From Bacteroidota bacterium (GTDB lineage: Bacteria; Bacteroidota; Bacteroidia; Palsa-948), in contig JACRAM010000100.1 in the NCBI GenBank assembly GCA_016213405.1, positions 1-64,000 on the forward strand: a stretch of DNA of 64,000 bases. Direction: 5' to 3'. This document shows positions 247-55,497 of the stretch, in pieces. A program made the position numbers and the translations under genes. Position 1 is the stretch's first letter; the number at the start of each line of letters is the position of its first letter. The notes below the pieces were generated by a model. The model had not been told where the DNA came from and did not search any database. It saw nothing but the letters and a program-made list of their open reading frames with translations.

Positions 247-492
247 TCAGCAATTCTCCTTCGTAAAAATCCCTGCCTTCCATGCTTGATGCACTGCGCC
301 TGTGATGGACTGAACGCCCAACTTCTGACGAATCATTCTCAAATCCCAATCCACAGTGTGGCTGCTCATGCTCACCTTAGCAGCTATCTGTTCTTTGGTG
401 AATTCCATAGCAGCATGTTTGAGCGCTGAAAATTCCCTGCTTGTTAATGGGAGTTTCGCAATTTTTGCGGGCTTCTTTTTTTTCTGTTTCAT
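247..492 (-). CDS. Stand-alone LuxR-type helix-turn-helix protein
   Basis: This 81-residue protein is a basic N-terminal tail (KQKKKKPAK) followed by a single LuxR/GerE DNA-binding domain (about residues 15-77). The LTSRE start, the EQIAAKVSMSSHTVDW recognition-helix region and the RQKLGVQS turn all fit the family consensus. There is no receiver or ligand-binding domain, so it probably depends on a partner or acts constitutively. It is convergent with the preceding gene and divergent from the hypothetical gene at 623. It might regulate that divergent gene, but no operator was identified. Confidence 0.75.
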   Translation of the reverse strand: MKQKKKKPAKIAKLPLTSREFSALKHAAMEFTKEQIAAKVSMSSHTVDWDLRMIRQKLGVQSITGAVHQAWKAGIFTKENC

Positions 493-572: not shown

Positions 573-580
573 TACATTTG
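573..580 (+). promoter_or_regulatory. Promoter -7 element TACATTTG
   Basis: TACATTTG matches the Bacteroidota -7 consensus TAnnTTTG and lies 42 bases before the ATG at 623. I do not see a clear TTG -33 element at the usual spacing. Confidence 0.45.
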
Positions 581-622
581 TGCCTCAATAAATCAATCAT
601 TAATCATTAACCTTTTATCTTC

Positions 623-1381
623 ATGTCAAAAAAAAATCTTCCTAAAATCGTATTGGCGCTCAATACGCGCAAAATGGACACGCCCACATTAGTGAGTTCT
701 GCAAAAGGAATTATACTGACAGGCGACCCTGATGCCACCGCTCCACCCGTACCCGACACCACCCTGCACGCGCAAGCCGATTCCCTGCTGCTCATCCACA
801 CCAAGCGCCAGACCAAACCGCCCACCGCCACGGCTGACCAGGAAACGCAGCAGCGCAATATTGTTGACCGCTCGTATAAAAAAGACGGGCTGTATGTGCA
901 GGGAGTGTGCAATGATGTGGCAGTCGCCAATGGCGATGTTACGGCAGGAGAAGCAGTGGCGCAGCGCATCGGCTATACGCTCAAAAAGCAAGCAACGTTT
1001 AATCCCACTGACTTTGGAGTTACTTCTCACGAACCGGGGCTGGCGGATGTGCAGGCAAAAAAAGCAAAGAAAGGAACTGAGGCGCATCTGTGGAGATACG
1101 GCATTACCCCTGCAAAAGACACTGCGCCCACCGCGTTGAAAACCCTCGTTACGGTGGAAGCGCATATTATTATTCAGAACCTGCCAAGCGGCAGCATCCT
1201 CGGCATTCAGCATGCCAGTGTGTTGCCTGTGAGCCACACTAAAAAAACCAGCGCTGCTGAAACAAAAACCAGTAAAATCGCCACGCAAATCTCCCTGAGC
1301 AAAGCAAAGCATCCTGTGTTCAGCCACCTCAGCGCTGACCCCTACCAGTGGACTAATTTTGTTTATACCGGAATCCTGTAA
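623..1381 (+). CDS. Hypothetical protein of a Bacteroidota surface/structural-type family
   Basis: This 252-residue protein has no signal peptide and no membrane segment. The N-terminal half (about residues 10-110, starting LALNTRKMDTPTLVSSAKG) is helical and Ala/Thr-rich. The C-terminal half (about 125-252) is beta-rich and ends in an aromatic patch (YQWTNFVYTGIL). This arrangement resembles small Bacteroidota proteins whose C-terminal part is sometimes annotated as fibronectin type III-like, with a helical region before it. I recognise the layout but not a named family, and no enzymatic motif is visible. It is preceded by a TACATTTG promoter element and followed by a 21-bp tandem array. Confidence 0.55.
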   Translation: MSKKNLPKIVLALNTRKMDTPTLVSSAKGIILTGDPDATAPPVPDTTLHAQADSLLLIHTKRQTKPPTATADQETQQRNIVDRSYKKDGLYVQGVCNDVAVANGDVTAGEAVAQRIGYTLKKQATFNPTDFGVTSHEPGLADVQAKKAKKGTEAHLWRYGITPAKDTAPTALKTLVTVEAHIIIQNLPSGSILGIQHASVLPVSHTKKTSAAETKTSKIATQISLSKAKHPVFSHLSADPYQWTNFVYTGIL

Positions 1382-1420: not shown

Positions 1421-1672
1421 TTACCGCTCGGTAAAGCAGTGTTACCGCTCTGTTTAGCGGTGTTACCGATAGGTAAAGTGGTGTTACGGCTCGGTTAGCG
1501 ATGTTTACCGCTCTGTTTAGCAGTGTTGCCGCTCGGTAAAGCAGTGTTACGGCTCGGTTTAGCGATGTTACCTATAGGTATAGCGATGTTACCACCCTGT
1601 TTAGCGGTGTTGCCGCTCGGTAAAGTGGTGTTACGGCTCTGCTTAGCAACAATACCGATGGGAGTGGCGCTT
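1421..1672. repeat. Tandem array of twelve 21-bp palindromic units
   Basis: Twelve head-to-tail units keep a 21-bp period; units 4 and 5 are 20 and 22 bp. The first unit starts TTACCGCTCGGTAAAGCAG. Each unit centres on a short palindrome: unit 1 has TTACCG-CT-CGGTAA, unit 3 has TTACC-GATA-GGTAA and unit 8 has TACCTATAGGTA. There are no spacers, so it is not a CRISPR array. Both strands remain open in one frame because the period is a multiple of three, which makes artefactual ORFs (1523-1768 plus, 1495-1704 minus). Confidence 0.9.
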
Positions 1673-1778: not shown

Positions 1779-2534
1779 ATGACAAAGATTTTATTTTTCA
1801 TTGCAGCGGTTTTCTTCCTGTCTACTGTTGCTCCGGCTCAGGACATCAACAAAACACTTAATGACGCGCAAAAGAACGCGCAGAAAGAAATTGACAAATA
1901 CACTAAAAAGAAAAAGAAAAACAAAGCGCTTTCAAATGATGAAGTCATCAGGGGTTTAAAAGAAGCGCTCAATGTAGGAACCAACAATTCCACCGCTTCC
2001 ACATCAAAGATGGATGGGTTTTATAAAAATCCGCTCGTCTTCATTCCGTTTCCTCCGGAAGCGGAAAAAGTGCGGAACACGGTTGTGAATCTGGGCATGC
2101 AAAAGCAGGTGGATGAATTTGTCATGACGCTCAACCGGGCTGCCGAAGAAGCCAGCAAAGAAGCAGCGCCTGTTTTTATGGATGCCATAAAAGCAATGAC
2201 CATTCAGGACGGTTTTGGAATATTGAAAGGGGCTGACAATGCTGCCACAAAATATCTTCAGGATAAAACCACTCCTGAGCTGACTACAAAATTTTCTCCC
2301 ATCATCAAAAGAGCCATTGATAAAGTGGAAGTGACTAAATACTGGAATCCTCTGATTACTACCTACAACAAAATACCTGGTGTTGAAAAGCAGAATCCTA
2401 ATCTTGAGCAGTATGTAACATTAAGAGCAATGGAAGGGCTTTTCAAGTTAATTGCCGGAGAGGAAAAAAAGATTCGCACCGACCCTATAGCGCGAATCAA
2501 TGATATTTTGAAAAAAGTTTTCGGATACAAGTAA
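1779..2534 (+). CDS. DUF4197 domain-containing secreted protein
   Basis: This 251-residue protein has an N-terminal signal peptide (about residues 1-20, ending APAQ), a short Lys-rich linker (KKKKK near residue 45) and then a DUF4197 domain from about residue 50 to the end. Family hallmarks are visible: LSNDEVIRGLKEALNVG, DGFYKNP, IPFPPEAEKV, NRAAEEASKEAAP, GADNAATKYL and the closing LKKVFG. DUF4197 proteins are widespread periplasmic helical proteins of unknown function. The gene has its own promoter just downstream of the 21-bp array and is convergent with the universal stress gene. Confidence 0.9.
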   Translation: MTKILFFIAAVFFLSTVAPAQDINKTLNDAQKNAQKEIDKYTKKKKKNKALSNDEVIRGLKEALNVGTNNSTASTSKMDGFYKNPLVFIPFPPEAEKVRNTVVNLGMQKQVDEFVMTLNRAAEEASKEAAPVFMDAIKAMTIQDGFGILKGADNAATKYLQDKTTPELTTKFSPIIKRAIDKVEVTKYWNPLITTYNKIPGVEKQNPNLEQYVTLRAMEGLFKLIAGEEKKIRTDPIARINDILKKVFGYK

Positions 2535-4454: not shown

Positions 4455-5336
4455 ATGGACAAAAACGAATTGAATGCTTTGCTGAGTTTGCTGGATGACC
4501 CTGATAAAGATGTTTTTCTGCAAGTGAGGGAAAAACTTTTATCTATAGGCAACAACGCAATTCCTGCACTTGAAAATGTATGGGAGCAGTCCTTTGACAC
4601 TACCATGCAAACAAAGATTGAGGAAATCATTCACAACATTCAGTTTAACACCACTGTTCAGGCGCTGAAAGAATGGTCCACTACCCCTGACCAGAATCTT
4701 CTTACTGGAGCACTTCTTATAGCCAAATATCAATATCCGGATCTGGATGAGCAAAAAAATAGAAAAACGATTCAACAGATTCGGCAGGATGTTTGGATTG
4801 AACTTAATGACAAACTTACTGCGCTGGAACAGGTGAAAATCCTGAACCATATTTTATTTGAAGTGCATAATTTCAGCGGCAACACGCAAAACTATCACGC
4901 TCCGCAGAATTCTTATGTTAATAATGTGCTTGAGAGCAAAAAAGGTAATCCGCTTTCTCTTTCACTCGTTTATCTCATTGTTGCGCAGGATTTAAAAATT
5001 CCGATTTATGGTGTGAATCTTCCTGAACATTTTGTTCTCTGTTATAAAGATGTTCACCAGCTGATGACTGTGAAAACAAAACGAGATGCAGAAATGATTG
5101 AACAAGGAATTTTATTTTATATCAATCCATTCAGCCGTGGATCTGTGTTTGGAAAAAAACAATTAGAGATATATCTTAAAAAAATGAATCTTGAGCCTAA
5201 ATCAGAACACTATCAGCCATGTACGAATCTTGAAATGATAAAACGCCTATTGAGAAATCTTGTTTTCTCCTATAAGAAATTGGGATATGCAGAAAAGCAG
5301 GATGAGATACAGAAACTGCTGAATGCGGTCAGTTGA
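4455..5336 (+). CDS. SirB1-like transglutaminase-fold protein
   Basis: The protein has 293 residues. The N-terminal 60 residues look like a HEAT-type helical repeat (SLLDDPDKDVFLQVREKL). The core (about 95-240) matches the SirB1/transglutaminase-like family, with the signatures NPLSLSLVYLIVAQ and PIYGVNLPEHFVLCY. Members are cytoplasmic and of unknown biochemical role; several lack a full catalytic triad and I cannot confirm one here. The last 8 bases overlap the 3' end of the convergent sugar transferase gene. It follows the phosphorylase on the same strand after 72 bases. Confidence 0.8.
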   Translation: MDKNELNALLSLLDDPDKDVFLQVREKLLSIGNNAIPALENVWEQSFDTTMQTKIEEIIHNIQFNTTVQALKEWSTTPDQNLLTGALLIAKYQYPDLDEQKNRKTIQQIRQDVWIELNDKLTALEQVKILNHILFEVHNFSGNTQNYHAPQNSYVNNVLESKKGNPLSLSLVYLIVAQDLKIPIYGVNLPEHFVLCYKDVHQLMTVKTKRDAEMIEQGILFYINPFSRGSVFGKKQLEIYLKKMNLEPKSEHYQPCTNLEMIKRLLRNLVFSYKKLGYAEKQDEIQKLLNAVS

Positions 5337-9155: not shown

Positions 9156-10349
9156 TCAGGATTTCATTATCAAAAAAATTATTTTTTCAAGATTCAAGTC
9201 TTTAGACATATTCTTGCAAGCATAAGTAAATCCGTTTTCACCCATTTTTATTAATTTCTCTGCCGGCAGATTCCTTATTTCAGTCATGCATTTTGATAAT
9301 TGTTTAATATTTTCAGGTTCTAAAACATAGCCGCAATTTGCCTCTTTAATACAAGAAGCAGAATCACTGCCATCATCAACGCATGCAATAATAGGTTTTT
9401 TAGAAAACATATAAGCAGGAAGTTTAGATGGAATAGAGAAACTGGCAGCGCCTTTTATTAAAGGAAGCAATAATACATCAGCCAAACTTTGTATTTCAGG
9501 CACTTTTCCATCTGGGACTGACCAAAATTCTATTGTGCCCTCTTTTATGCCATTTACTTTTTTTTCCAATATTTTTCTCATTGAGCCAGAACCTGCTATA
9601 ACCAAACGGCTATTAGATAGTTTAGCATCTAAAAAAGAATTTATTAGTAATTGCACTCCTGCAGTGGCGCCAATATTTCCTAAATACATAAAAGTAAACG
9701 GGGCATGATTAGATTTTTTTAGTTTGTCTTCTTGTTCGTACTTGACAAATGTTTTTTCGTCCTGCCAGTTTAGAACAACGTTTATTTTATCATAAGATAT
9801 TTTTCTGGTTTCAGTAAGATATAATTTCATTTTCTCTGAAATCGTAATGATTTTGTCTGCGTTTTTTAGTACGTATTTATCTATACGGAATAAAATAAAA
9901 TAAAGCAATTTGCCAATCAGATATTTTTTCTTGGTTAATGATTCCGGGTAAATATCCTGTACATGAATAATGATGGGAACATTAAATTTATTTGCAGCAG
10001 CTACAGCGAGGCACTGCGCTATCAACGGCCATGTGTTAGCGTATATTACTTTTATATTTTTATGATTTTTCGAAATGTATTTATAACAATATTTCCCAAA
10101 GCTATAGCTTTCAATAAACCTTCCTAATATATTTGGTTGAGGACTGACGAAAGAATTTGACTGAATATGGTTAAAATTATATTCCGAATTCATTGTATTG
10201 AACTTGAACCCAAGGGGACGGGAAGGTTTTGGAGAAATAACTGTTACGATCTCTTTTGCTGAAATAGCATTTGCAATATCAAATGATAATTTTGCAGACA
10301 CTACAGGCTCAGGTGGAAAAACAGCTGAAATAATTAAATTGGTTTTCAT
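9156..10349 (-). CDS. Glycosyltransferase family 4 (GT-B fold)
   Basis: This 397-residue cytoplasmic glycosyltransferase has an N-terminal acceptor domain starting MKTNLIISAVFPPEP and a C-terminal donor domain of the GT1/GT4 type from about residue 205 (FTFMYLGNIGATAGVQ). It also has VIAGSGSMRK, the PLIKGAASFSIPSKLPAYM region and the late EANCGYVLEPEN that sits in the nucleotide-sugar site of WbuB-like enzymes. It should add one sugar of the repeat unit on the inner membrane face. Confidence 0.88.
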   Translation of the reverse strand: MKTNLIISAVFPPEPVVSAKLSFDIANAISAKEIVTVISPKPSRPLGFKFNTMNSEYNFNHIQSNSFVSPQPNILGRFIESYSFGKYCYKYISKNHKNIKVIYANTWPLIAQCLAVAAANKFNVPIIIHVQDIYPESLTKKKYLIGKLLYFILFRIDKYVLKNADKIITISEKMKLYLTETRKISYDKINVVLNWQDEKTFVKYEQEDKLKKSNHAPFTFMYLGNIGATAGVQLLINSFLDAKLSNSRLVIAGSGSMRKILEKKVNGIKEGTIEFWSVPDGKVPEIQSLADVLLLPLIKGAASFSIPSKLPAYMFSKKPIIACVDDGSDSASCIKEANCGYVLEPENIKQLSKCMTEIRNLPAEKLIKMGENGFTYACKNMSKDLNLEKIIFLIMKS

Positions 10350-11757: not shown

Positions 11758-13593
11758 ATGCAACGAAATTTAATTTATCTATTGTTTACTGTATTTCTTT
11801 GGTTTGTTTTTGGTACCACTCTCTGCATAATTATTTGGGGAATGAATAAAGGGTTTGATTTTACTGATGAAGGTTTTAATATTCTTTCGTTTTCTAAAGG
11901 TCAGGAAAATGTCTTGAACTTCATTCCGATATATCTATTAATAAGTAAGTTGTCTGGTACATTTGAGTTTGGAATTTTGTTTTTTAGAATTTTAAGATTG
12001 ACTCTTTTATTGTTATCATCTTTTGTTTTTTCATTCGGTTTTGTTAAATGGTTTCGTTTAACGATGAAATCCAATCTCCCGACTTTCAATTTGTTTTACC
12101 CAATCATTTTTCTTTCAACCCTTATGAGTTATGCGTTTGGCTATCAAATTTTATCATATAATTCACTTACGCTTTGTGTAGTTCAAATAGTAATAGGGTT
12201 ATTTTTTTTGTATGTATGGTTTATCCAACAGGAAGAGAAAAATGTAATAAGAATAAGAGCCATTCTTGTGTCTATTGGTTTTTTGGTAGCGCTATTATTT
12301 TTAATCAAGTATCCAACGGCAATTATTTTAATGATTGTTTTAGGAATAATTTTTCTTATTACTGAGTTGAAATTAAATGACAAGAAAATAAAAGATGTTC
12401 TTTTTAACGCTCTATCAGTTTTTGTCGGTATTATATTGTTGGGACTATTGTTATCTGCTTGTTTTCATTCGCCCATGTACATAATCAATGGTATCCTAAA
12501 AGGGAAAGAATATTTGCCTGCTCATAATGCCGATTTTCTTTTTCATCTGTATGCTGAAGATTATTTTGATAATTTTCTGAAAATAATTATTTATCATAAA
12601 ATAATGCTTATAAGTCCGATTATAATGTGGCTGTTCTTCAGATTCTCTTATAGAAAAATATTTTTTATTTCAGCCGTTATTTGTTTTTTATTAATAGCAA
12701 ATGATGTTTTAGTCAATGAATATTACAAAGCAGGAATGACTCATATCTATGTTGCTTCTGCATTTTACAGACTGATAGCCCTGTTTTCTATTATATTCCT
12801 TGTTCTAAACATTATTGATAAACGAGCGAGGAATTTATGGCTGCCGTTTATTTCAAATCGCTTAATTTTTTTCTGTGGACTGTTTTTATTATTCATGACT
12901 CCTATAATCTGTTCTTTTGGTACAGCCAATGTGCCATCTGTTCATATAACTCAATTTGTTTTTTCGTGGGTGTTGGTTTTTGTTTTTATCCTGTCTGCTT
13001 TATTTTCAAAATTTCTTTACACTGAATATTTATTTCTAATAGTTGTTTTTTTAATAATGATAAACATGTCATCACAAATTATTTATGGAAATGTGTATTC
13101 TCCCTATCGGATGAATGCGCCTCTGACAGAGCAGAAATTTACTGTTCCAGAACTCCCGGCAGGTAATAATATTCAGTTTGACTATGAAACAAGTGTTTTT
13201 TTGAAAAGCATTACTGAAAAACTGAAAAGCCATCATGCTCTTACCAAAGGCCAGCCGATAATTTCAATCTATAATTATCCGGGATTGATTTATTTGCTCG
13301 GAGGCCGCTCCCCGGGAAATGCTTTGTATTTCGACACTGGGTTTGCAAACTATTACAATAGCGGTTATTTGTTTGATTATGATAAAAGTAATTGCTTCTT
13401 TATTCGTAATTCGACTATGGAAAATTTAAACAAGACGGTTATATTGATAGAGCAGGAATTTAATGTGTCGCAACAATTATATGAATGTTTAAATAAAAAA
13501 GGAATTTGTTTCCCTGAAAAATATTTTAAAGCAGATTCCGTTCGCATTCCAGCAAAAAAAGATTATTTGTTTTTATTTCTACCAAAGAATTAA
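11758..13593 (+). CDS. GT-C-like multi-pass membrane protein
   Basis: A 611-residue protein with about ten to twelve membrane helices in the first 440 residues and a soluble C-terminal domain (about 455-611). An acidic motif in the first external loop (FDFTDEGFN, about residues 35-43) resembles the catalytic Asp/Glu loop of GT-C enzymes such as GT39/ArnT. These move a sugar from polyprenyl phosphate outside the cytoplasm. It is the only plus-strand gene in the locus and has its own promoter, so it may be controlled separately or have been inserted. I infer a GT-C role; no exact family is recognised. Confidence 0.55.
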   Translation: MQRNLIYLLFTVFLWFVFGTTLCIIIWGMNKGFDFTDEGFNILSFSKGQENVLNFIPIYLLISKLSGTFEFGILFFRILRLTLLLLSSFVFSFGFVKWFRLTMKSNLPTFNLFYPIIFLSTLMSYAFGYQILSYNSLTLCVVQIVIGLFFLYVWFIQQEEKNVIRIRAILVSIGFLVALLFLIKYPTAIILMIVLGIIFLITELKLNDKKIKDVLFNALSVFVGIILLGLLLSACFHSPMYIINGILKGKEYLPAHNADFLFHLYAEDYFDNFLKIIIYHKIMLISPIIMWLFFRFSYRKIFFISAVICFLLIANDVLVNEYYKAGMTHIYVASAFYRLIALFSIIFLVLNIIDKRARNLWLPFISNRLIFFCGLFLLFMTPIICSFGTANVPSVHITQFVFSWVLVFVFILSALFSKFLYTEYLFLIVVFLIMINMSSQIIYGNVYSPYRMNAPLTEQKFTVPELPAGNNIQFDYETSVFLKSITEKLKSHHALTKGQPIISIYNYPGLIYLLGGRSPGNALYFDTGFANYYNSGYLFDYDKSNCFFIRNSTMENLNKTVILIEQEFNVSQQLYECLNKKGICFPEKYFKADSVRIPAKKDYLFLFLPKN

Positions 13594-15975: not shown

Positions 15976-16704
15976 CTATTTTTTTTTATTCTTTAATACA
16001 TAGATATTGCCAAAATACAGATCAATATTTCTAGGAAAAAAATATGAAAGCAATCCTAACAAATTATTTAAAATGCTGAACGGAATTATAAAGATCCATG
16101 CAGTTAATCCTGGTATGTATTTTTTAATAGTTGTATATAAATAACTATTTATTAATAAAAAAATCAATCTGAAATCAGTTAAGTATTTTTTGTGTCGGAC
16201 GATTTCAAACCCATGTGCATCAAATAAATGTTTTAATCCAAATGAGGAATAGCGGGCGAAATCATAGGGCTGCTCGTGTTCTCCCCAGATAAAAGGAATT
16301 GTAATCAAGCAATGCCCGCCTGGTTTTACAACTTTTTTTATCTGCATAAAAAATTTGTCCGGATTAAAAACGTGTTCCAGCACTTCAAAAAACACTAATG
16401 AATCAAAAGAATTTTCTTCAAAAGGGAAATGCTCTCCATCATAAAATACTTCAATGTGTTCATTTTGGTGGGTATGCCCGGATTGTTCTATATCCATACC
16501 TGTATAGGAAGTGACTTTTGAAAAAAGATGGACATACGGTTTGCTTCCACAGCCAACATCCAATGTTTTTCCCGAAACAAATCCGGAGAATTTTTTAATA
16601 TTAATATACATGGCACTTTTTCCCAGGAAGAACGGATTAATTAAAAATGCTGTCAGTCCCGGGTGAAATAATTGCTGCAATATATAAGATTTAATTTTTT
16701 GCAT
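15976..16704 (-). CDS. Class I SAM-dependent methyltransferase
   Basis: A 242-residue protein of the Methyltransf_11/23 type. Motif I is KTLDVGCGSKPY (about residues 45-56), the acidic end of strand 2 is TGMDIEQSG, and DSLVFFEVLEHVFNP plus KPGGHCLITIPF give motifs IV and VI. The C-terminal third has two hydrophobic stretches (about 175-225) that could touch the membrane. It probably methylates a glycan or lipid-linked intermediate of this locus. Confidence 0.85.
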   Translation of the reverse strand: MQKIKSYILQQLFHPGLTAFLINPFFLGKSAMYINIKKFSGFVSGKTLDVGCGSKPYVHLFSKVTSYTGMDIEQSGHTHQNEHIEVFYDGEHFPFEENSFDSLVFFEVLEHVFNPDKFFMQIKKVVKPGGHCLITIPFIWGEHEQPYDFARYSSFGLKHLFDAHGFEIVRHKKYLTDFRLIFLLINSYLYTTIKKYIPGLTAWIFIIPFSILNNLLGLLSYFFPRNIDLYFGNIYVLKNKKK

Positions 16705-16810
16705 TTTTAATTCTATTCATATTATATCTGTGGGATGAATATTATTGTCATCAAAATATTTTTTCTTGTCTTTCATTTATTAAATAATTTAAATTTATTA
16801 TAAAACCCGT

Positions 16811-23814: not shown

Positions 23815-25848
23815 ATGAAAAAAATATTTTCCCACCGCCCTAAACCCCGTAGGATTAGAATTATCCAACGGGGTAAAGGGTGCTATAGATTTTTTGTATT
23901 TCTTCCGCCAGTTGGCGGATTGGTTCTACTTCTCTTTCCATTTAACTTAGGAAGCGCAATCATTCGGCAGGATGCAGCTCAAACCAAATCATCACCCAAA
24001 AAATTTCCGCAGGGATATTTTGTTGAGCCCACCGATTCTTCGCTGAGCATTGCCGGAAACTTCGGGGAGATACGTCCCAATCATTTTCATGCAGGCATAG
24101 ATATTAAAACGGGTGGGAGAGAAGGCGCTTTCATTTATGCCGCAGCCGATGGGTATGTGTCGCGCATAAAAATTTCTCCATGGGGATATGGCAAGTGTAT
24201 TTACATCACGCATCCGAATGGATATGTTACTGTTTACGGACATCTTCAGCGATTGTACGGAAAGATTGCCAAGTACCTGGAACTGGAACAGTACCGGTTG
24301 GAGCAATATGAGGTGGAACTTTTTCCTGATTCAAATTTACTGAGAGTGAAACAATGCGACACGGTTGCCATTTCAGGAAACACAGGTGGCTCGCAATCTC
24401 CGCATCTGCATTTTGAAATCCGCGATGCGGTAACAGAGAACGCGTATAACCCGTTTCTTTTTGGATTCAGGATACATGATACCGTTCCCCCAAAACTAAT
24501 GACGCTTGCCATTTACCCCGTTGAACATCCGTCCTACGGGGTTTATCCTGCGAATGATTCAAGTTCGGTGAATGGAAAAAATGTTCCGAAGAAAATAAAA
24601 GTTTACCCCGTTGGACAAGGTCAAAAGTCCTACGGGGTTTATGGAAGTAAGGGCAAATACAAACTTTCTTCGGCTGAAAAAATAACTGTGAGCGGTGATA
24701 TCGGCTTTGGAATTGAAACGTATGATTATGCCAACATTAAAGAAGCGGGAAAACTGGGAGCATACTCAGTTGATTTATACATTGACGGACATCGGATTTA
24801 TTATCACGAGCTGAACGAAATTTCTTTTGACGAATCCCGCTATGTAAATTCCCTCATTGATTATGCCGAAGAAGCAAAGAGCAATAAGGAAATTCAGAAA
24901 TGTTTTCGTGAAGAGAACAATATGCTTTCTATTTATCAGTGCATGGTGAATGAAGGGTTGTTTCGGTTTGATGACTCGCTTTCTCATCCGGTGAAGTTTG
25001 TGGTAAAAGATTTTTTCGGGAACACTTCAAGTTTGGAGTTCAAAGTTCGGAGTTCGGAGAAGAAAATTAAAACACTCCCAACTCCCAACTCCCAACTCCC
25101 AACTAAAATGAAATGCTCTGACCTTAACAAATACGAAACCGAAAACATAAAAATCGAAATTTCTCCCTGTGCATTGTATTCAGATATTGATTTTGATTAT
25201 TCCATGAGCAAGGATACGCTGCCCGGAACTTTTTCTCCGGTTCACACCATTCACAAAGAAGTGGTGCCCTTGCAAGTCAACTATTCTCTTTCTATAAAAA
25301 CAAAATATCTTTCTAAAAACCTTCAGTCAAAAGCTACCATTGTTTTGCTGGATGGGAAGAATAATATGACGGATCAGAAGGGCAGCCCATCCCTAACCCT
25401 TCCCGAAGGGAAGGGAACTGCACGCCCAAGTTCTCCCCCTTCGGGGGAGTTAGTGGGGGCATTGTGGCTCACCACCCAAACCCGCTACTTCGGGCGTTTT
25501 ACGGTTGCGCTTGATACGGTTGCTCCCACCATCAAGCCATACAATATTTATAATGGCAAGAACATGGCAAAGGCAAAAACAATTTCCATTATCATTTCAG
25601 ATAACCTCACAGGAATTAAATCATATCGCGCCACCATTGACGGCAAATGGGTGCTGATGGAATACGAACCGAAGAAGGCGTTGTTGTTTTATGAATTTCA
25701 GACCCCCACTCTTATCTCCCCCAAAGGGGGAGAGGCTCCTTCCTCCCGACAAGTCGGGACGGGGGAAGGGGTGGCACACACCTTCGTTCTCACTGTTACT
25801 GACGGAAAAAATAATGTCAGCACTTACAAGGTAGAGTTTGTGAGGTGA
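23815..25848 (+). CDS. M23 family metallopeptidase with inserted repeat elements
   Basis: A large LytM-type peptidase (677 residues from the ATG at 23815; an upstream in-frame start at 23752 would overlap the divergent promoter). The catalytic domain (about residues 85-235) has the zinc motifs HFHAGIDIK and HLHFEIRD. Such enzymes cut peptidoglycan cross-links outside the inner membrane. The rest is beta-rich linker. Repeat elements interrupt it in frame at 23844-23874, 24514-24545, 24604-24641, 25029-25105, 25381-25466 and 25701-25777, giving peptides such as TLPTPNSQLPT and SPSLTLPEGKG. The hydrophobic N-terminal anchor itself contains a CCGCCAGTTGGCGG palindrome. Confidence 0.88.
   Translation: MKKIFSHRPKPRRIRIIQRGKGCYRFFVFLPPVGGLVLLLFPFNLGSAIIRQDAAQTKSSPKKFPQGYFVEPTDSSLSIAGNFGEIRPNHFHAGIDIKTGGREGAFIYAAADGYVSRIKISPWGYGKCIYITHPNGYVTVYGHLQRLYGKIAKYLELEQYRLEQYEVELFPDSNLLRVKQCDTVAISGNTGGSQSPHLHFEIRDAVTENAYNPFLFGFRIHDTVPPKLMTLAIYPVEHPSYGVYPANDSSSVNGKNVPKKIKVYPVGQGQKSYGVYGSKGKYKLSSAEKITVSGDIGFGIETYDYANIKEAGKLGAYSVDLYIDGHRIYYHELNEISFDESRYVNSLIDYAEEAKSNKEIQKCFREENNMLSIYQCMVNEGLFRFDDSLSHPVKFVVKDFFGNTSSLEFKVRSSEKKIKTLPTPNSQLPTKMKCSDLNKYETENIKIEISPCALYSDIDFDYSMSKDTLPGTFSPVHTIHKEVVPLQVNYSLSIKTKYLSKNLQSKATIVLLDGKNNMTDQKGSPSLTLPEGKGTARPSSPPSGELVGALWLTTQTRYFGRFTVALDTVAPTIKPYNIYNGKNMAKAKTISIIISDNLTGIKSYRATIDGKWVLMEYEPKKALLFYEFQTPTLISPKGGEAPSSRQVGTGEGVAHTFVLTVTDGKNNVSTYKVEFVR
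23844..23874. repeat. Class B element inside the M23 N-terminus
   Basis: ACCCCGTAGGATTAG and TTATCCAACGGGGT form inverted arms. The same CCCCGTTGGA/TCCAACGGGG or CCCCGTAGGA/TCCTACGGGG pattern recurs at 24514, 24604, 26963, 27045 and 38452. Confidence 0.75.
24514..24641. repeat. Two class B elements in frame in the M23 gene
   Basis: Two copies (24514-24545 and 24604-24641) each start TACCCCGTTG and end CCTACGGGGTTTAT. Each therefore encodes the same ends, YPV at one side and SYGVY at the other, with different loops. Confidence 0.8.
25029..25105. repeat. Low-complexity inverted element in the M23 gene
   Basis: The left arm iterates GTTCGGAG-type steps and the right arm iterates CCCAACT steps. 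They are roughly complementary and separated by an A-rich centre. A related element sits in truA at 43105-43192. Confidence 0.7.
25381..25466. repeat. Class A compound element in the M23 gene
   Basis: Two successive hairpins (CCCTTCCCGAAGGGAAGGG and CTCCCCCTTCGGGGGAG) with flanking pyrimidine-rich and G-rich ends. Read in frame as SPSLTLPEGKG and PSSPPSGELVG. Confidence 0.8.
25701..25777. repeat. Class A compound element in the M23 gene, second copy
   Basis: Hairpin CTCCCCCAAAGGGGGAG followed by a TCCCGACAAGTCGGGA palindrome and a GGGGGAAGGGGTGG tail; read in frame as LISPKGGEAPSSRQVGTGEG. Confidence 0.8.
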
Positions 25849-28950: not shown

Positions 28951-30369
28951 ATGAAAAATATTCTTCTCATAGGTGCCGGGCGTTCTGCCTCTACATTAAT
29001 AAAGTACCTGCTTGATAATTCTCAAAAAGAGAACTGGAAGATCACCGTTGCTGATATTTCTCTTGAACTCGCTGAGCAGAAAACAAATCATCATTCAAAT
29101 GCGCATGCCATTGCTTTGGATATTAATAATGAAGAGCAACGAGCTGCAGAAATCAGTAAGGTTGACTTGGTTATTTCCATGCTTCCCGCCACCATGCATC
29201 TGCCTGTGGCGAAAGAATGTTTGAAGCAGAAAAAACATCTGGTCACTGCAAGCTATGTTTCCAAGCAGATGAAAGAATTGGATGCGGATGCAAAAAAAGC
29301 GGGCGTAATTTTTCTGAATGAGATTGGATTGGACCCGGGCATAGACCATCTTTCCGCCATGAAGGTGATTGATGAAGTGAAAGCCAAAGGCGGAACGATG
29401 ATAACTTTCAAATCCTATTGCGGTGGATTAGTAGCTCCCGAATCAAACGATAATCCATGGGGATATAAATTCACCTGGAACCCGCGTGCTGTGGTGATGG
29501 CAGGGCAGTCTGGTGATTCCACCGGAGCAACTGCTCAGTTTCTAGAGGATGGAAAAACAAAATATGTTCCTTACACAAGATTGTTTTCGAATGTTGAAAC
29601 AATTTCTGTGGACGGTTGGGGAAAGTTTGAAGCATACGCCAACCGCGATTCTCTTTCTTATATGGAATTGTACGGATTACACGATGTAAAAAATATGCTT
29701 CGCGGCACTTTGCGTATGCCCGGCTTCTGCAAAGCGTGGAATGCCTTCATTCAACTCGGGCTTACGGATGATAACTGCAAAGTCTCTAACTCTTCAACTA
29801 TTTCTTACGCTGAACTGATTGATTCCTTTTTGCCCTCACCCCATCCCTCACCCCGAGGGAGAGGGAGAAAGGGAGAGGGCTCTGTAAAAAAGAAACTGGC
29901 AAAGTTTCTCCGCGAAAAAGATAACTCCCCTGTAATGAAAAAGCTGGATTGGCTTGGCCTATTTAAGAATCAGAAAATAGGTTTACAAAATTCATCTCCC
30001 GCAGAAATTCTTCTTGACTTATTAATGAAGAAATGGAGTTTGAAAGAACACGATAAAGACATGGTGGTGATGCAGCATCTTTTTGAATACAAAGAACCAA
30101 GTCTCAAGTCTCAAGTCTCAAGTCTCAAGAGAACAGCCAAAGGCAAAATTCAGAAACTAACTTCATCGATGGTTGTGATAGGTGATGACCAGATTAATAC
30201 TGCCATGTCAAAAACAGTTGGGCTTCCACTCGCAATTTCTACCAAACTTATTCTGAACGGAAAAATAAATCTTACTGGTGTGTGGATTCCTACTGTAAAA
30301 GAAATTTACAATCCTGTTCTGGCGGAACTGGAAAAATTTGGAATTACATTTATAGAAAAACATAACTGA
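28951..30369 (+). CDS. Saccharopine dehydrogenase family protein
   Basis: A 472-residue NAD(P)-dependent enzyme of the saccharopine dehydrogenase/LYS9 group, acting in lysine metabolism in the cytoplasm. The N-terminal Rossmann motif is ILLIGAGRSAS (about 4-14). Further marks are VISMLPATMHLPVAKEC, NEIGLDPGIDHLSA (about 124-137) and SYCGGLVAPESNDNPWGYKF. Two repeat elements are read through in frame: PSPHPSPRGRGRKGEGS (29832-29882) and SLKSQVSSLK (30098-30129). Both lie between conserved blocks, so the fold is likely intact. Confidence 0.9.
   Translation: MKNILLIGAGRSASTLIKYLLDNSQKENWKITVADISLELAEQKTNHHSNAHAIALDINNEEQRAAEISKVDLVISMLPATMHLPVAKECLKQKKHLVTASYVSKQMKELDADAKKAGVIFLNEIGLDPGIDHLSAMKVIDEVKAKGGTMITFKSYCGGLVAPESNDNPWGYKFTWNPRAVVMAGQSGDSTGATAQFLEDGKTKYVPYTRLFSNVETISVDGWGKFEAYANRDSLSYMELYGLHDVKNMLRGTLRMPGFCKAWNAFIQLGLTDDNCKVSNSSTISYAELIDSFLPSPHPSPRGRGRKGEGSVKKKLAKFLREKDNSPVMKKLDWLGLFKNQKIGLQNSSPAEILLDLLMKKWSLKEHDKDMVVMQHLFEYKEPSLKSQVSSLKRTAKGKIQKLTSSMVVIGDDQINTAMSKTVGLPLAISTKLILNGKINLTGVWIPTVKEIYNPVLAELEKFGITFIEKHN
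29832..29882. repeat. Class A element inside the saccharopine dehydrogenase gene
   Basis: CCCTCACCCCATCCCTCACC followed by CCGAGGGAGAGGGAGAAAGG: one pyrimidine arm and one purine arm. In frame, no stop. Confidence 0.85.
30098..30129 (+). repeat. CAAGTCT tandem iteration inside the same gene
   Basis: Four copies of CAAGTCT (period 7) encode SLKSQVSSLK. There is no obvious inverted partner nearby. Confidence 0.75.
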
Positions 30370-42587: not shown

Positions 42588-43469
42588 CTAAACTAACTGC
42601 CACTCTTTCTCCGCAGTATTTTGAAAGATGGCAGAAAATTCAGTTCGTGCAGGAATATCTAAGAAAGGATAAACAACTTTAGAAAGATAAAGCCCTTGCG
42701 GATAGGCGAATTCAAGATTGGATTGTGATTCTTTTTTGATTAAATAGTTTTCAAACTCATCAACAGAAATTTCATTCGTTCCGACTTTCAGAAGTTTGGC
42801 TACAATCGCCCGAATCATTCCGTGCAAAAACCGGTCGGAAGAAATTTGAAAGCGAAGTTTATCCCCTTTGCTATCACAAAATAATTTTGCGGAAGAAATA
42901 GTGCAATGCGTGTGCTTGTATTGGTCGGGAGATTTGCAGAGCGCGCGGTAGTCTGTATGTTTTTTGAGAAGTGAAACTGCTTCTTTCATTTTATCTAAGT
43001 TCAAGTTCTTTTCTAAATAAAATGAACTAACGTTGCTGAGGAAAGGGTCTTTATATGTGTGAATGAAGTAATCGTAGGTTCTTTGTTTGGCGTCATACTG
43101 CGCGTGTGGAAGTGCGGAGTTCGGAGTGTGGAGTTTGGAGTTGGGAGTTTGGAGTTGGAGGTTTTCTCCGACCTCCGTACTCCCAGCTCTCATCTCAATT
43201 ATATCAAAAATGGCAATATCGGCAGGCAGCATTTTGTTTAAGCGAAACAGTAAATCGAAATCCCATTTCTCTTTTATATCTGCATGAAAAAAATATTGGC
43301 TGGCGTGCACTTGTGCGTCTGTTCGCCCACAACCTAAAATGGTGGTTGGCTCTTTTAATATTTTGCTGAGGTTTTCTTCCAGCACTTGCTGAATGCTCAT
43401 AAACTCCGATTGCCTTTGCCAGCCATGGTAATGGAAGCCGTTATAACCGATATGGAAGAAATATCTCAA
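42588..43469 (-). CDS. truA: tRNA pseudouridine synthase A
   Basis: A 293-residue enzyme that makes pseudouridine at tRNA positions 38-40. The catalytic Asp is D51 in CGRTDAQVHA; RTYDYFIHTY and ISSDRFLHGMIRAIV are typical. A low-complexity insert (about residues 95-121, containing LQTPNSKLHTPNSAL) comes from the inverted repeat element at 43105-43192. It sits in the loop before HAQYDAKQRTYDY, so the active site should survive. Promoter TAACTTTG at 43498-43491. Confidence 0.93.
   Translation of the reverse strand: MRYFFHIGYNGFHYHGWQRQSEFMSIQQVLEENLSKILKEPTTILGCGRTDAQVHASQYFFHADIKEKWDFDLLFRLNKMLPADIAIFDIIEMRAGSTEVGENLQLQTPNSKLHTPNSALPHAQYDAKQRTYDYFIHTYKDPFLSNVSSFYLEKNLNLDKMKEAVSLLKKHTDYRALCKSPDQYKHTHCTISSAKLFCDSKGDKLRFQISSDRFLHGMIRAIVAKLLKVGTNEISVDEFENYLIKKESQSNLEFAYPQGLYLSKVVYPFLDIPARTEFSAIFQNTAEKEWQLV
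43105..43192. repeat. Low-complexity inverted element inside truA
   Basis: The left arm iterates GGAGTTCGGAGTGTGGAG-like steps and the right arm contains CTCCGACCTCCGTACTCCC. The arms pair imperfectly. Related to the element at 25029-25105. Confidence 0.75.
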
Positions 43470-46106: not shown

Positions 46107-47039
46107 ATGAAAAAATATTTCGGACTTAAGTTGCTTGCCTTCTGCCTTCTGCTTTCTGCCTTTTGCTTTCTTTTTTCCTGTTCGCACTCTGAGTTTTCCG
46201 ATTATGAAAAAACAGAATCGGGATTGATGTATAAATTCCACAAACACGGAACCGATACGCTGCATGCCCAATATGAAAATGTAGTGCGGGTAAAAATGAA
46301 CAAGCGCTTTAACGATTCTCTCCTTGAATCTACCAACAGCATGATCCCTGAAGGAATTGAGCAGTATCTCCGAAAACCAGCTTTCCCCGGAGCGATTGAA
46401 GAAGGAATTCATATGATGGTGATTGGCGACAGCGCAACTTTTCTCATTAGCACCGATTCTATCAACAAATACTACCCTCCAAAAGATTCAACAAAAATTT
46501 TCGAACCAAATAAATATCTCGCGTTTGATATTAAATTAGAAAACATAAAAACGATGGAAGAAGTCAGAGCAGAAGAAGAACAAAGAAGAAAAGAGTTTGT
46601 TGCAGAGCGAAAAGAGAAAGGACCTAAAGAGCTTAGTCAATATATTGCAGATAATCACATTGAGGCGAAACCAACTGCCAGCGGATTGTATTTGATAGCA
46701 AAAGAAAAAGGAAAAGGCGCGATGCCAAAAGATGAGGATACGGTGGTTGTTCATTACACCGGAACTTTTTTAGATGGAACCATTTTTGATTCTTCCGTGA
46801 AACGAAACCAGCCGTTTTCTTTTGTAGTGAACGATAAAGGTAGTATGGGAGTAATCCCCGGCTGGAACGAAGCCATCAAGATGATGAATAAAGGAACCAT
46901 CGCAACTGTTATTCTTCCACATTCGCTTGCATATGATTCAGTGGGCGTTCAAAACCCACAGTCCGGCAAATATTTTATTCCACCTTACTCTCCTCTTAAA
47001 TTCGATATTCAATTAATAGACATTAAATCAAAAAAATAA
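46107..47039 (+). CDS. FKBP-type peptidyl-prolyl isomerase lipoprotein, third of four
   Basis: A 310-residue lipoprotein (lipobox FLFSC near residue 25). An N-terminal FKBP-like half lacks most catalytic residues. A central charged helix (about 148-182, [20 protein letters not shown]) links it to a canonical C-terminal FKBP domain (about 193-310) with [29 protein letters not shown] and a final FDIQLIDI. The signal peptide core ([17 protein letters not shown]) is encoded by an iterated TGCCTTCTGCTTTC repeat. It probably acts on periplasmic or outer membrane proteins. Confidence 0.88.
46131..46180 (+). repeat. Iterated CTTCTGC repeat encoding a signal peptide core
   Basis: TTGCCTTCTGCCTTCTGC-type steps of about 7 bases, C/T-rich, translate to hydrophobic Leu/Cys/Phe residues. 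It has no inverted partner nearby. Confidence 0.6.
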
Positions 47040-55160: not shown

Positions 55161-55239
55161 CAAATCCAAAGCAACGGGAGAATGATTACTTTATAACTCG
55201 TTGAATAATTCTTCCGCAGAACGACCTTTCAGTTTAATC

Positions 55240-55449
55240 AGAGTAGTATTTCACTGCATCAGAGTAGTATTTCACTGCATCAGAGTAGTATTTCACTGCA
55301 TCAGAGTAGTATTTTACTACTCCAGAGTAGTGTTTTACTGCTACAAAGTAATGTTTTACTACTACAGAATAGTATTTCACTGCAGCAGAGTAGTATTTTA
55401 CTACTCCAGAGTAGTATTTCACTGCATCAGAGTAGTATTTTACTACTCC
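55240..55449. repeat. Tandem array of ten 21-bp palindromic units
   Basis: Ten units with no spacers, each AGAGTAGTATTTCACTGCAT plus C or the variant AGAGTAGTATTTTACTACTC plus C. The second variant contains the perfect palindrome GTAGTA-TTT-TACTAC. The two variants alternate irregularly. It has the same 21-bp period as the array at 1421-1672, but another sequence. Confidence 0.92.
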
Positions 55450-55497
55450 AGAAACCATAAACAACACCAAATACAAGGGCGGTAGTTAAATCTGCTT

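Follow-up and report, generated by a model that had tools for sequence, protein, structure and literature searches.

A 21-bp tandem array beside a multicopy gene family in Bacteroidia: constant period, variable sequence and a possible two-part cassette

The window, a stretch of 64,000 nucleotides from a Bacteroidota bacterium, is part of a 3.65-Mb draft genome and carries near its start a tandem array of 21-bp units at positions 1421–1672 (no strand assigned). The array begins 40 bp past the stop codon of a 252-aa protein gene (623–1381, plus strand) and is followed, 107 bp beyond its end, by the start of a DUF4197 gene (1779–2534, plus strand). Divergent from the 252-aa gene lies a third gene (247–492, minus strand) that, according to domain search, encodes an 81-aa solo DNA-binding protein of the LuxR/GerE type. 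Pattern matching identified an element (TACATTTG; 573–580, plus strand) 50 bp before the ATG of the 252-aa gene that resembles TAnnTTTG, which we take to be the Bacteroidota -7 consensus, and this element is the probable promoter of the gene. Judging from the motif TATGTTTG near position 1750, the DUF4197 gene seems to have a promoter of its own. A second, unrelated 21-bp array (ATCAGAGTAGTATTTCACTGC, about 10 copies) was detected by TRF at 55237–55452 (no strand assigned).

TRF, a lag-21 identity of 0.74 and the individual unit lengths confirmed that the array at 1421–1672 consists of twelve contiguous units with one 20/22-bp pair, as a preliminary description of this DNA had stated. The consensus unit is TTACCGCTCGGTAAAGCGGTG and the units measure 21, 21, 21, 20, 22, 21 bp and so on (n = 12), where unit 4 of 20 bp is followed by unit 5 of 22 bp so that the phase is kept. 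A 42/84-bp higher order is also present. The same description had recognised neither a coding repeat nor a CRISPR array and was correct in both respects, as stops occur in all six frames over 1421–1639, and as the units are contiguous without the unique spacers that separate conserved CRISPR repeats. Rfam returned no family match for the array, and a DNA search of its own genome matched only the array itself, which rejects a REP/BIME element with one palindromic sequence dispersed genome-wide. The pattern TTACCN4GGTAA was not commoner than a control pattern (5 vs 6). An iteron replicon was also rejected, as the protein of the neighbouring gene had no Pfam or NCBIfam (Rep) match and no plasmid match was obtained; searches for a plasmid or phage location found no match among 72,556 plasmids or 50,697 phages, giving no support to mobility on either.

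Profile searches placed the 252-aa protein (pI 9.5) in clade A of a multicopy Bacteroidia family. No toxin-like domain was detected in it, and a single-sequence structure model was unusable (pLDDT 28). The wider family was joined by iterated profiles and its consensus has a C-terminal Fn3-like motif, GLxSGTxYxFR...WSD, with an N-terminal region that looks helical when judged by eye only. Of 395 Bacteroidia genomes sampled, 51 contained members, frequently with many copies each. In G006, a genome of the same genus, there were 19 matches to the 252-aa protein, some of them fragments, and on first inspection nearly all of them were followed by a 21/42/63-bp array. Family paralogs are under purifying selection with dN/dS values of 0.06–0.31, which rejects diversifying selection on these proteins.

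Linkage between arrays and this family was measured as the best lag-21 identity within 700 bp on each side of every family member. All 19 evaluable clade A loci had a 3' array and none had a 5' array; L165 and L174 are near-identical copies that lie at contig ends, and two further loci were cut by contig ends. A 3' array is also present at L094, which branches basally in the other clade. The first set of clade B members had a 5' array in 10 of 14 loci (11 with the borderline L195) and a 3' array in none, with L200 scored through its 42-bp period. Control reading frames of at least 200 aa from the sampled stretches gave 16/659 and 15/659 for the two sides, further control counts were 13/509 and 12/529, and flanks free of large reading frames for 400 bp gave 5/74 and 4/71, corresponding to control rates of 2–3% overall and 6–7% beside large intergenic gaps. 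A second set of 60 further members, nearly all from other genomes, was fetched after the rule had been formed and showed a 5' array in 43 loci, a 3' array in 3 (two loci had both) and none in 16. The count of 43 includes extra 42/63-bp criteria that were not applied to the controls, and by lag 21 alone it is 38; in a few of these loci (L230, L160) the high value is due to 7-bp or other short-period arrays. The thresholds were set on the first set, and the counts refer to simple gene calls in draft genomes and sampled stretches. On the maximum-likelihood protein tree the side of the array follows the clade, with 6 changes compared to 14.9 when labels were shuffled. The gene–array linkage is solid: arrays accompany nearly every copy of the family, on the side typical of its branch. 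The preliminary description missed this main point, namely that the array belongs with the gene preceding it and that arrays of this kind go with the gene family across the whole class.

Small solo DNA-binding proteins were also found just upstream of clade A genes, at the window locus and at L164, L170, L172, L197, L198 and L203. They are of the LuxR/GerE type in the window and L172 (both divergent), the Cro/C1 type in L164 and L170 and the LytTR type in L197, L198 and L203, and the protein at 247–492 has a counterpart in G006, where a homolog (50% over 64 aa) occupies the equivalent position next to paralog L172. GerE, Cro/C1 and LytTR were the commonest domains among 70 small upstream frames, compared to one GerE protein in 45 control frames. 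A solo regulator adjoins only about half of clade A genes and the folds are three unrelated ones. A small solo DNA-binding protein is a possible third part of a cassette formed by gene and array, and is treated as a lead only, given the low counts and the relatedness of the three LytTR cases. The DUF4197 gene lies outside this cassette, being conserved in relatives that lack it. Flanks of up to 1,500 bp around the DUF4197 loci recovered in 29 relatives contained no long 21-bp array, so that DUF4197 can be regarded as a mere neighbour. A more distant genome, L139, has one 21-bp array 300 bp before its DUF4197 gene.

Array content of the same genome (G000) was surveyed over 0.60 Mb of stretches taken by contig number or beside known hits, a sample that is not strictly random. 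With long arrays defined as at least 60 bp and at least 3 copies, and periods of 6–29 bp considered, 17 of 17 had a period of exactly 21 bp and no other period was represented. The consensus units of the arrays all differ and their sequences are unrelated. Mean excess identity over 22 arrays was +0.49 at lag 21, with lags 20, 22, 7 and 14 at baseline; with neither a lag-7 nor a lag-14 signal, an origin from 7-bp repeats was rejected. Congeneric genomes G006 and G001 also hold 21-bp arrays, and the search for additional arrays that had been proposed earlier thus found them to be frequent in this genome and in relatives. Slippage-like higher orders of 42, 63 and 84 bp are common, and some arrays other than that of the window contain a stop-free frame. 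Over 60 arrays we counted 2201 substitutions against the consensus and 16 one-base phase shifts, a ratio that is biased because the repeat finder favours regular arrays. Many arrays adjoin genes outside the protein family, as in L074 and L139. The former has a 21-bp array (AGATGCCTCATCTAAAGGACA, 4.6 copies; L074:5023-5119) in the short rpoB–rpoC gap. The latter (Umea bin 1585, CAIMUP010000039.1) is very satellite-rich, with six unrelated 21-bp arrays in 20 kb (1-182, 2504-2687, 4963-5281, 9208-9396, 12744-12948 and 16577-16745) that adjoin housekeeping-like genes, several at convergent 3' ends.

Two pairs of paralogous loci showed how such arrays change. In L218 and L251, which belong to one genome, the spacers flanking the array are 95.5% and 94.5% identical and the genes 86.4% identical (dS 0.52, dN/dS 0.13), while the arrays align without indels over 343 bp at 72.3% identity, and the changes recur from unit to unit. 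In this pair the array sequence is free to change at constant period and length, a pattern that turnover of an array mixed from the outset could give without a raised mutation rate. In the second pair, L214 and L243, identity was 85% for the spacer, 81% for the gene and 65.5% for the array, whose alignment needs many gaps. Synonymous sites of the gene next to the L218 and L251 spacers have diverged by about 0.5 per site, against an identity of about 95% for the spacers between gene and array, which can be interpreted as either strong constraint on the non-coding flanks or their gene conversion.

The consensus of the window array contains a dyad, TTACCG-CT-CGGTAA, that is above chance, with 69% of positions paired in register vs 35–51% when the partner was slid, and with p = 0.03 against column permutation. 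It had been claimed earlier that each unit keeps a small palindrome through compensating changes that preserve symmetry rather than sequence. The units themselves did not bear this out: at least 5 of the 6 pairs are kept only in units 1, 3, 6, 8 and 10 (about 5 of 12), and in most of the remaining units the outer pairs are broken (GGTAA to GTTT). Overall pairing across all 12 units was 69.0% vs 66.7% in shuffles (149 of 500 as high), and pairs changed on both sides numbered 3, a value reached in 97 of 500 shuffles. The covariation test across units that had been suggested for this array therefore showed no covariation above chance.

The idea fared better for the arrays as a class. Symmetry was assessed against a column-permutation null, with mirror symmetry in the same data and under the same null as an internal control. 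Complementary palindromes were enriched over 60 unrelated arrays, 19 of which had p < 0.05 (Fisher p 1.7e-12), and mirror symmetry was not (2 arrays with p < 0.05; p 0.98). Clear symmetry was present in about one third of the arrays and many had none. In some, such as L196 and L161, pairing within units exceeds pairing between units, with p-values that are optimistic because the axis was picked on the same data. Dyad symmetry is a tendency of the array class and not a rule for each array, and the claim that symmetry is kept rather than sequence holds across the class and fails within the window array.

The window array is a satellite of the 20–21 nt constant-length kind. In the accessible text of Subirana and Messeguer, bacterial satellites of 20–21 (20–23) nt are described as having constant length and variable sequence and as occurring in many bacterial groups (PMC8161180, PMC6749651, PMC8625621); the authors point out that such a unit spans two turns of the helix and regard protein binding or small RNAs as possible roles, leaving the function open (PMC8161180). 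The arrays here share with them constant size, unrelated sequences in one genome and mostly non-coding character: the repeat length here is constant (17 of 17 long arrays at 21 bp in 0.60 Mb), sequences differ between arrays of one genome, and the window array encodes no amino-acid repeat, given its stops in six frames. The present arrays differ from those described there in being exactly 21 bp, in favouring dyad over mirror symmetry, in their clade-specific linkage to a gene family and in occurring in Bacteroidia. The portions of the three papers that were read do not mention a gene family beside arrays, and the terms 'palindrom' and 'hairpin' are absent from that of the Bacillus satellite paper (PMC8625621). 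Relative to the literature searched, three features are new: the link to a gene family, its clade-specific side and the preponderance of complementary over mirror symmetry. Constant-length bacterial satellites have so far been catalogued without function or partner, and the family linkage offers a first handle for tests. The arrays are also a case where geometry and not sequence seems to be under selection, which can be measured in natural paralog pairs such as L218/L251.

Our preferred reading, held tentatively and at somewhat below an even chance, is that the array forms the non-coding half of a two-part cassette whose coding half is the gene at 623–1381, and serves as a phased platform of double-stranded DNA for a protein. 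In such a cassette it is probably two-turn phasing and dyad symmetry that are constrained, rather than sequence, and the constraint probably acts at the DNA level. We infer this platform, and the binding of a protein to it, from the exact period, the free sequence, the dyad tendency and the clade-specific gene linkage that were observed. Sites in the array would be stacked on one face of the helix, and a protein would bind them cooperatively, needing their spacing and symmetry and tolerating or co-evolving with their sequence. Candidate binders are the family protein itself or the adjacent solo protein of LuxR, Cro/C1 or LytTR type, and the likely outcome would be regulation of the cassette at its own locus or formation of a local nucleoprotein structure. 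Repeats spaced by about 21 bp are used by LytTR proteins and in many operators, and dimeric HTH proteins recognise dyads; a shared geometric requirement among different regulators would account for one rhythm with many sequences. Iterons, other tandem operator arrays and LytTR sites consist of direct repeats spaced by about two helical turns and adjoin the gene of a small DNA-binding protein, and share both features with the cassette. Unlike them, the arrays described here lack a Rep-like protein, matched none of the plasmids or phages searched, differ in sequence from copy to copy and occur many times per chromosome. Several observations count against the platform. The sequence differs from array to array, which is unusual for sequence-specific binding by what is a predicted binder only; many arrays are not beside the family; clear symmetry is confined to about one third of all arrays and absent from many; and the regulators have three unrelated folds and occur at about half of clade A loci. 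The broader proposal, of an undescribed kind of two-part element, present many times over in the class Bacteroidia, in which a small-protein gene and a private satellite selected for spacing and symmetry belong together, and a cognate protein (family member or solo regulator) forms a phased DNA filament, is possible and is put forward with some doubt. If true, 20–21 nt satellites of other phyla might have similar partners.

Alternatively, the arrays may be satellites without a function of their own, generated and homogenised in intergenic DNA by a replication or recombination process whose step is inherently two turns long, with short palindromes promoting the duplications. This by-product explanation, which we consider rather unlikely, would account for every array having its own sequence, with that of the window finding only itself, for arrays beside unrelated genes, for the far greater divergence of paralogous arrays than of their spacers and for the common slippage-like higher orders. 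The absence of other unit lengths would however be unexpected, as would linkage, throughout many families of the class, to one protein family with a side that depends on the clade.

In type III toxin-antitoxin systems an antitoxin of RNA repeats is encoded 5' of the gene for a ToxN-like endoribonuclease, and a tandem repeat adjoining a small-protein gene, 5' in clade B, recalls such loci. Transcribed array hairpins could act as a repeat RNA binding or neutralising the protein encoded next to it, or as a small RNA or UTR stability element, a reading that we regard as quite unlikely. It is favoured by the palindromes, by the transcription of satellites in Bacillus coagulans (PMC8625621) and by the minus strand of the window array folding better than shuffles (z -3.1). 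Short gaps of 33–41 bp between array and ATG in some clade B loci (such as L187 and L163) leave little room for a promoter, so that arrays there may be transcribed. The sense strand, in contrast, folds no better than shuffles (z -0.9), and the array has no Rfam match. A terminator-like hairpin separates stop codon and array in L197 and L198; in L203 the hairpin scan was negative and a similar hairpin with a longer loop was seen by eye. Mismatches at paired positions in sense orientation were 37 G-T vs 35 A-C by type, which gives no support to RNA through wobble asymmetry, and 106 vs 76 by count, a mild G-T excess that, together with the short-gap loci, speaks against the platform. This mismatch balance does not favour RNA acting in one strand, and the hairpins of L197 and L198 and the lack of a G-T excess by type point to DNA rather than mRNA. 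Unlike type III systems, the arrays have a 21-bp unit in about ten copies, lie 3' in clade A and adjoin genes with no detected toxin domain, and RNA action is unsupported; with the array 3' in clade A and no toxin family match, this assignment was rejected for the window locus.

Genes controlled by VNTRs are known in other bacteria, and 21-bp arrays directly 5' of clade B genes would fit a contingency locus where copy-number change tunes the neighbouring gene and a two-turn unit adds copies without rotating flanking sites, but the clade A array lies 3' of its gene, sometimes past a terminator-like hairpin, and we regard this reading as very improbable.

Arrays of 21 bp were also observed 3' of a second multicopy family in this genome (protein start MASTSETGHAKNVANFEDL; L069:4579-5325, L068:3734-4510, L050:8343-9107 and L180:1483-2232) that has no convincing Pfam match. 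Two unannotated proteins, L045:1019-1720 (MSRNEEYIPKRDDDF...) and L062:1-459 (MAKGKYYPTEDEKIR...), have a 21-bp array 52–58 bp before the start codon.

Heptamer repeats are abundant intergenic tandem repeats in Beggiatoaceae (PMC4679880) and other bacteria, and 7-bp arrays are frequent in this genome also; unlike them, the 21-bp arrays show no lag-7 signal and no shared sequence. Among short periods, tandem repeats of 7 and 14 bp predominated by far (39 and 22 arrays in 0.60 Mb), with a different sequence at each site, and occur in the window at 25074-25104, 30098-30129, 43104-43160 and 46136-46171. In several family genes (L187:2200-2238, L044:14414-14450, L190:770-834, L168 upstream of 2259 and window 588-616) the leader immediately upstream of the ATG consists of G-poor heptamer repeats, for example TTAACCA or AACCTNN. 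A strong 7-bp leader was present in only 1–2% of genes, which rejects a general gene rule, and over all genes such leaders were slightly commoner upstream than downstream.
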